33,177 nt of DNA from Candidatus Omnitrophota bacterium (GTDB lineage Bacteria > Ratteibacteria > UBA8468 > B48-G9 > JAFGKM01), in the NCBI GenBank assembly GCA_023819225.1, contig JAMWCZ010000005.1, forward strand, positions 1 through 33,177. The letters are read 5' to 3'. Below the pieces are notes generated by a model. That model had not been told where the DNA came from and searched no databases. It saw nothing but the letters and a program-made list of their open reading frames with translations. The position numbers and the translations under genes were made by a program. Of the stretch, positions 15,101 through 16,487 are shown piece by piece; position 1 is the stretch's first letter, and each line of letters starts with the position of its first letter.

Positions 15101-15147
15101 GAAAAGGTAAGGCAATAGGGGTTATGGCTTGCTTTTTGCATTCATCC

Positions 15148-15355
15148 TGTAGCGGTGTGATTTATCACACGATTTCCTCCCCATATAAGGGGGGAGGATA
15201 TAGGTTTACCCCTCACCCTACACCTCTCGCCGCTGTGCGGTGCGAGGGGGAAAGATAAAATGAAGAGGAGAGGGAAGAAAAAGGTGAAGGGTGAAGAGAA
15301 CATCTCTGGCGGGCAGGTTTATTGCACAATTCGTCGGATAAATCCGACCGCTACA
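15148..15355. repeat. 208-bp intergenic element with terminal inverted repeats TGTAGCGGT..GATTTATC..ACGA
   Basis: Left end tgtagcggtgtgatttatcacacga (15148-15172). Right end, reverse complemented, tgtagcggtcggatttatccgacga. Each end is itself a hairpin. Confidence 0.75.
15209..15250. repeat. CCCCTCACCCT-type repeat copy 1
   Basis: cccctcaccct at 15209-15219 followed by cctctcgccgctgtgcggtgcgaggggg, a hairpin-like segment. Confidence 0.6.
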
Positions 15356-15429
15356 AAATAAAAACCCAGGATTAAATACTTAAATACGAAAGACCCAACT
15401 TATATTCTGGCAAGATATTTAGCATTTGA

Positions 15430-15458
15430 TTGGATATTGTGTTAATATATTTTATAAT
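15430..15458 (+). promoter_or_regulatory. Possible promoter TTGGAT-17-TATAAT upstream of kdsA operon
   Basis: TTGGAT 15430-15435, TATAAT 15453-15458, spacer 17. Confidence 0.35.
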
Positions 15459-15459
15459 G

Positions 15460-15497
15460 CCCCTCACCCTGCCCTCTCCCCACCTATGAGGAGAGGG
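15460..15497. repeat. CCCCTCACCCT-type repeat copy 2 with hairpin CCCTCTCC/GGAGAGGG
   Basis: cccctcaccct 15460-15470; ccctctcc 15472-15479 pairs with ggagaggg 15490-15497. Confidence 0.7.
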
Positions 15498-15546
15498 ATA
15501 AAAAGAGAAGTTGGAGCAGAGCAGGAAAGAGAAGCAAGAAGAAAAA

Positions 15547-15568
15547 CTCTCCCCATATATGGGGAGAG
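15547..15568. repeat. Perfect 22-bp palindrome CTCTCCCCATATATGGGGAGAG
   Basis: Direct reading; perfect self-complementarity. Confidence 0.85.
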
Positions 15569-15659
15569 GGATAAGAAGAGAAGGGAGAGGAGAAAGGTAA
15601 GGAAATATAAGGGGTGAGAGGGAAAGGTGAATTTACGTTAAATCTCCTTAATCAAGATT

Positions 15660-16487
15660 ATGACAAGGGAAATAAAGATAGGAAAGCATAAAATAGGGAG
15701 GGACAACATCTTCTGTCTTATAGCGGGTCCCTGCGTTATAGAGAATGAAAAGATGGTTTTTTATACTGCGGAATATCTTAAAAAGATGTGCGAGAAAGAA
15801 AAAATCCCCTTCATCTTCAAGGCATCATTTGATAAAGCAAACAGGTCTTCTATTAAGTCGTTCAGGGGACCTGGAATGAATAAAGGGCTTGCAATACTTG
15901 CAAAGATTAAAGAAAAACTCGAAATTCCTGTTACAACTGATGTACACTGCTATAATCAGATAATACCGGTCGCTGATGTAGTTGATATTATCCAGATACC
16001 AGCCTTCTTGTGCAGGCAGACAGACCTTTTAGTGGCAGCAGGAAAAACAGGAAAGGTGGTAAATGTAAAAAAGGGACAATTTCTTTCTCCATGGGAAGTA
16101 AAAAACATAATAGAAAAAGTTGTTTCAACCGGTAATAAAAATGTCATTATTACTGAAAGGGGAACAAGTTTTGGGTATAACAACCTTGTCTCTGACTTTC
16201 GCGCTCTTCCTATAATGAGAAGTTTCGGCTATCCTGTAATATTTGATGCCACACATAGCGTTCAACAACCTGGCGGACTGGGGAAGTCCTCCGGTGGGAA
16301 TAAAGAATTTGTTCCATATCTTGCAAAGGCATCTATAGCGGTTGGCTGTGATGGGATATTTGCAGAGGTTCATCCTGACCCTGTTAGTGCATTATCAGAC
16401 AGTTTCAATATGCTCAACTTAAACGAAATGAAGAAACTATTATCAGAACTTAAAGATATATATCTTGCTGTATCTAAAGGGAGTTAA
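15660..16487 (+). CDS. kdsA: 3-deoxy-8-phosphooctulonate (KDO-8-P) synthase
   Basis: FCLIAGPCVIENEKM, FKASFDKANRSSIKSFRGPGMNKGL, DVHCYNQI, VIFDATHSVQQPGG. Confidence 0.97.
   Translation: MTREIKIGKHKIGRDNIFCLIAGPCVIENEKMVFYTAEYLKKMCEKEKIPFIFKASFDKANRSSIKSFRGPGMNKGLAILAKIKEKLEIPVTTDVHCYNQIIPVADVVDIIQIPAFLCRQTDLLVAAGKTGKVVNVKKGQFLSPWEVKNIIEKVVSTGNKNVIITERGTSFGYNNLVSDFRALPIMRSFGYPVIFDATHSVQQPGGLGKSSGGNKEFVPYLAKASIAVGCDGIFAEVHPDPVSALSDSFNMLNLNEMKKLLSELKDIYLAVSKGS

Follow-up and report, generated by a model that had tools for sequence, protein, structure and literature searches.

In PMC3733652, GTAG-tagged REPs are described as occurring in subtypes with complementary stem changes and as head-to-head dimers, which in some families are unequal. 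For the E. coli transposase TnpA-REP, it has been shown that the upper stem can be swapped for its complement while cleavage is kept (PMC8266576). We analysed a stretch of 33,177 nucleotides from a Candidatus Omnitrophota bacterium (the window), which carries a repeat with these properties. The repeat is a GTAG-class REP/REPIN family; the kind is already known and the family is new. We consider it very likely that the window feature represents two copies of this one family, lying near each other in a repeat-filled intergenic gap, and that the family is spread by a REP-associated tyrosine transposase (RAYT), the spreading being predicted from analogy. In the literature searched, no description of REPs in the window's lineage was found, which does not prove that none exists.

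Two hairpins of a dispersed REP family

The first hairpin is a REP singlet at positions 15148-15172 of the plus strand (TGTAGCGGTGTGATTTATCACACGA), with the GTAG tag at 15149-15152, a stem formed by 15155-15160 and 15165-15170, a TTTA loop and a GA tail. The second REP, of stem type CGG/CCG, lies at 15331-15355 of the minus strand (TGTAGCGGTCGGATTTATCCGACGA), with a stem formed by 15343-15348 and 15333-15338. Both are intergenic. A sequence-only reading of the window had reported the letters of both hairpins and described their differences as compensatory. The letters are as it gave them: two pairs of positions in the stem are changed between the hairpins, with pairing kept in both. Folded as DNA, each forms a stem of 6 bp and a TTTA loop, with computed energies of -4.6 and -5.5 kcal/mol; only 1 of 200 shuffled sequences folded equally well.

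The family follows the pattern TGTAGCGGT-NNN-ATTTAT-NNN-ACGA, which can also be written as T-GTAG-CG-GT(NNN)AT-TT-AT(NNN)AC-GA, and is dispersed through the window's own genome. Counting copies by pattern search identified 40 sites with at most 3 mismatches in this 1.52-Mb genome, in both orientations (16 and 24), and none with the reversed control pattern. When the pattern did not fix the three inner stem pairs, the family was found in 9 of 35 phylum genomes, where the control gave no match in any, and it was missing from many close relatives. The further genome-wide copies that the sequence-only reading had called for thus exist. A genome of the window's own genus (G015) and one of the same class (G034) both contain matches. 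Among named records, exact matches were observed in Candidatus Ratteibacteria and several metagenome-assembled genomes labelled Omnitrophota, and also on a few contigs labelled Elusimicrobia, Planctomycetota, Bacillota, Clostridia and others. Of 30 REP sites, 20 lie outside open reading frames of at least 100 aa, which, some of them spurious, make up 60% of the same loci. The family has the features of a GTAG-class REP, a GTAG tag beside a short palindrome in many copies, and the window hairpins are genuine members of it, probably copied by a small single-strand transposase.

Covariation of the stem

The search pattern set no letters for the three inner stem pairs, so that pairing at these positions was not built into the result. 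Across 150 copies, 123 were fully Watson-Crick paired at the three free pairs, compared to a mean of 25.7 and a maximum of 44 in 5000 rounds of shuffling partners among copies, a comparison that is not a strict probability because the copies share descent. In the window's own genome, 19 of 31 copies were fully paired, compared to 4.3 after shuffling (maximum 13). Pairing was 92%, and shifting the partner by one base reduced this to 14-17%. Nine different complementary stem triplets were found. Covariation across copies, proposed by the sequence-only reading as a test of its hairpins, is therefore present.

The departures from pairing do not have a strand preference. Among the 28 wobble-type departures in the 150 copies, 14 were G-T and 14 were A-C, so that nothing shows selection on standing copies. 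In existing copies, decay seems to favour neither strand, and from this we infer that the pairing constraint acts when copies are made and not on each copy later. Paired stem changes can also arise by mutation, if template switching in the hairpin during replication (quasipalindrome correction) copies one arm from the other, which needs no function. The stem types often differ by G-C to C-G swaps, for which no wobble pair can serve as an intermediate; these swaps and the lack of strand preference among wobble departures speak for template switching. However, this process does not account for the constancy of the GTAG tag, the loop and the tail, for the REP-flanked RAYT gene or for the always-different doublet arms described below. 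We regard it as an unlikely explanation when taken alone, and it may act together with selection.

A REP-flanked transposase in a relative

In the related genome G029, a 136-aa transposase reading frame (L148) starts 11 bp after a family REP and stops at a REP doublet; it represents a RAYT gene with the same REP on both sides, as in a REPtron. The protein matches the NF047646 model of REP-associated tyrosine transposases with an E-value of 1.7e-19 and 70 bits, which is under the cut-off of 80, and passes the cut-off of PF01797. Its sole convincing match in the PDB is E. coli TnpA-REP (4er8, E 1.3e-7), with which its PDHLH sequence (an HUH-type motif) and a tyrosine align. Judged by these residues, it combines the HUH motif and the putative catalytic tyrosine of a REPtron protein. 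The REP-associated transposase that the sequence-only reading had suggested looking for was thus found, in a relative. A closely related transposase (49% identity) is encoded in G034, with no family REP directly beside it.

In the window's own assembly, which is 92% complete and consists of 134 pieces, no RAYT flanked by TGTAGCGG was found. This assembly contains two Y1 transposases with the terminal repeats GGGGTCAG and ACCGCCCCCGCAGTGG. These were rejected as the cognate RAYT because their terminal repeats are unrelated to the REP.

Other RAYT-like genes of the phylum (L142, L146 and L147) are bordered by their own, different hairpin repeats, for example GTAGTGCGACCCTTTCAGGGTCGC and GGTAGCCGCAGGTCTTCAGCCTGCG. 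In a separate locus (L005, 1264-1990), a Y1 transposase with inverted ACCGCCCCCGCAGTGGAACA ends lies between two sugar-nucleotide epimerase-like genes, and its ends overlap or touch the adjoining reading frames.

Doublets with unequal arms

Doublet pattern searches identified 35 head-to-head pairs in 7 genomes, mostly 51-56 bp long and with the GTAG tags on the outside, as well as 6 tail-to-tail pairs in 2 genomes. These 35 doublets are two inverted REPs at fixed short spacing, as in a REPIN; the two window REPs do not form such a pair. Not one of the 35 doublets has equal stems, compared to 8.6 expected when arms were reshuffled within genomes (P about 5e-5). When each stem combination was counted once per genome and doublets on contigs labelled as other phyla were added, 23 cases remained, with P values of 0.01 to 0.0005. 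In this family, stems that differ between REPs are the rule, and the unlike ends in the window are not the result of drift within one element.

According to computed folds, a doublet with equal arms forms one hairpin of -26.9 kcal/mol. For a real pair with unequal arms the value is -14.9 kcal/mol, which is nearer to the approximately -10 kcal/mol of two separate hairpins (-4.6 and -5.5). Unequal stems might thus let each REP fold alone, which is a weak step since the computed fold of the unequal pair still favours a long hairpin with two internal loops. Alternatively, removal of long palindromes by the host could cause the inequality of the arms. We tentatively suggest an obligate unequal-stem REPIN type, in which many stems are allowed in either arm and never one stem twice, either as a requirement of the transposase for two independently folded hairpins or through removal of equal-arm palindromes by the host.

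Target-site duplications, which the sequence-only reading had listed among the things to look for, were not seen beyond chance. Duplications of 2-3 bp were found at 5 of 23 family REP doublets, compared to 3.5 expected when flanks were swapped; the 208-bp span between the outer ends of the two window hairpins was excluded from this test, as it exists in a single copy only. The result fits an HUH enzyme.

The intergenic gap and the 208-bp span

The two REPs lie in a gap of 560 bp (15101-15660) between a HIT-family gene and a kdsA-like gene on the same strand, and this gap consists mostly of repeats of several families. Within it, a solo terminal repeat is present at 15118-15141 of the plus strand; repeats of the same type stand on either side of a Y1 transposase on contig C52. 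The own genome contains 31 sites of this type at up to 3 mismatches (control 0), and a pair surrounds the gene in L004. The sequence of this terminal repeat is GGGGTCAGGTCTTGCTTTTTGCAT, and the solo copy in the window reads GGGGTTATGGCTTGCTTTTTGCAT.

Between the two REPs, a CCTCCCC-ATATAA-GGGGGAGG palindrome (15174-15205, no strand assigned) has many copies in the own genome, G017 and G016, and a repeat copy of the CCCTCACCCT.. type (15208-15274, no strand assigned) has many own-genome matches. The palindrome family also occurs at 15547-15570 of the window, and the sister genome G017 carries dozens of copies of it that are nearly identical.

The second REP belongs to a head-to-head doublet on the minus strand (15307-15355), whose other arm is a long-loop REP without its 5' part. 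G015 and other parts of the own genome contain such doublets in complete form (L193, L194 and L198), and five long-loop REPs with an intact 5' end were found in the own genome. Positions 15307-15361 have a perfect 55-bp copy in G015 (C36, 854-908); in that genome the doublet is complete and has, as its left arm, a long-loop REP that contains an inner hairpin. The left window hairpin is thus a lone REP, and the right one forms the 3' half of another doublet, whose 5' part is lost.

Only about 30-50 bp separate the same two genes in the relatives G016, G014 and G013, compared to 560 bp in the window. The gap is likewise short in G018 and G019, and in G017 it is filled by other repeats. Own-genome matches to 15148-15355 were fragments only, the longest of 67 bp, together with one weak match of 94 columns, and the fragments represent different repeat families. 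Because the gap is short in relatives and repeats of other families lie inside the span, the gap is a site where repeats gather, and the 208-bp span has arisen by chance from this gathering.

The location also bears on the possibility that the hairpins act as RNA elements, by terminating transcription, forming mRNA ends or regulating the adjoining genes. PMC3733652 places REPs of other bacteria mainly downstream of genes, many of them plausibly transcribed, and the window cluster sits between two genes of the same strand. On the other hand, no Rfam match was observed in the window at the gathering threshold, the own-genome copies occur in both orientations (16 and 24), G-T departures on the tagged strand are not in excess over A-C departures, and several relatives have the same gene pair without the repeats. 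An RNA function is therefore very unlikely.

The sequence-only reading described the 208 bp as one element with inverted ends. That they form a single MITE-like element, moved by a transposase which recognises both ends, is largely refuted and extremely improbable. In its favour, the inverted ends show 77% complementarity over 35 nt, and an end-to-end fold of the whole span is possible (z -4.1). Against it, the hairpins come from different insertions with at least two other repeat families inside, the right end is part of a doublet with its own left arm, the real doublet measures approximately 51-56 bp and has no target-site duplication, and a second copy of the arrangement is missing both from the own genome and from 15 family members, where only its pieces recur, in other settings. 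As a candidate mobile element, 15148-15355 was consequently rejected for its mosaic interior and lack of a second copy, and repetition of the whole unit with both ends, as in a MITE of a DDE transposase, was not observed.

Proposed mechanism and comparison with known systems

By analogy with studied RAYT/REP systems, the REP family would be propagated on single-stranded DNA, where the RAYT would bind the hairpin together with the GTAG tag and cut strand-specifically, and would spread REP doublets in trans. Copies that do not fold would not be recopied, which would maintain the complementarity of the stem, and inserted copies would then decay freely. In a doublet, unequal stems would allow each REP to fold alone without collapse into one long perfect hairpin, which would bury both GTAG tags. 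The conserved positions suggest that the transposase probably reads the GTAG tag, the CG, the loop and the GA tail, and ignores the letters of the stem as long as they are paired. Of the interpretation given by the sequence-only reading, a functional hairpin such as a REP/MITE-like substrate, the REP-like hairpin family is supported, with the covariation and the REP-flanked transposase in a relative, whereas the MITE-like unit is not.

These results extend REP/RAYT systems to uncultured and poorly studied Ratteibacteria/Omnitrophota-like bacteria. The matched stem variants represent a natural data set on what such a transposase probably reads, and the absence of equal arms gives a simple and directly testable prediction of which doublets move or survive.

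Compared to the GTAG-tagged REPs described in the available text of PMC3733652, the family has the same layout as GTAG-1, with a GTAG tag, two unpaired bases, a stem-loop and a short unpaired tail, and it shares the subtypes with complementary stem changes and the head-to-head dimers. It differs in stem and loop sequence, and the window's lineage is not listed in that text. The Y1 transposases of the own genome resemble the TIRYT genes described there. A closely similar REP of Pseudomonas entomophila, TGTAGGAGCGGATTCATCCGCGAT (Table 1, PMC2817692), also has this layout, and its ATTCAT centre equals the ATTCAT subtype of the window family; it carries GA after the tag instead of CG, and another stem. 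As in the REPINs of P. fluorescens SBW25 (PMC3116915), inverted REP doublets are the probable mobile unit and compensatory changes occur. However, the SBW25 doublet is one long hairpin, whereas the arms in the window family always differ and this hairpin is weaker. The combination of unequal REP types is shared with the y/z REP mosaics of E. coli TnpA-REP (4er8; PMC8266576). In E. coli REPs a mismatch bulge in the stem is required (PMC8266576), whereas the stem of the single REP in the window family is perfect, like that of the group 3 REPs in the same study.
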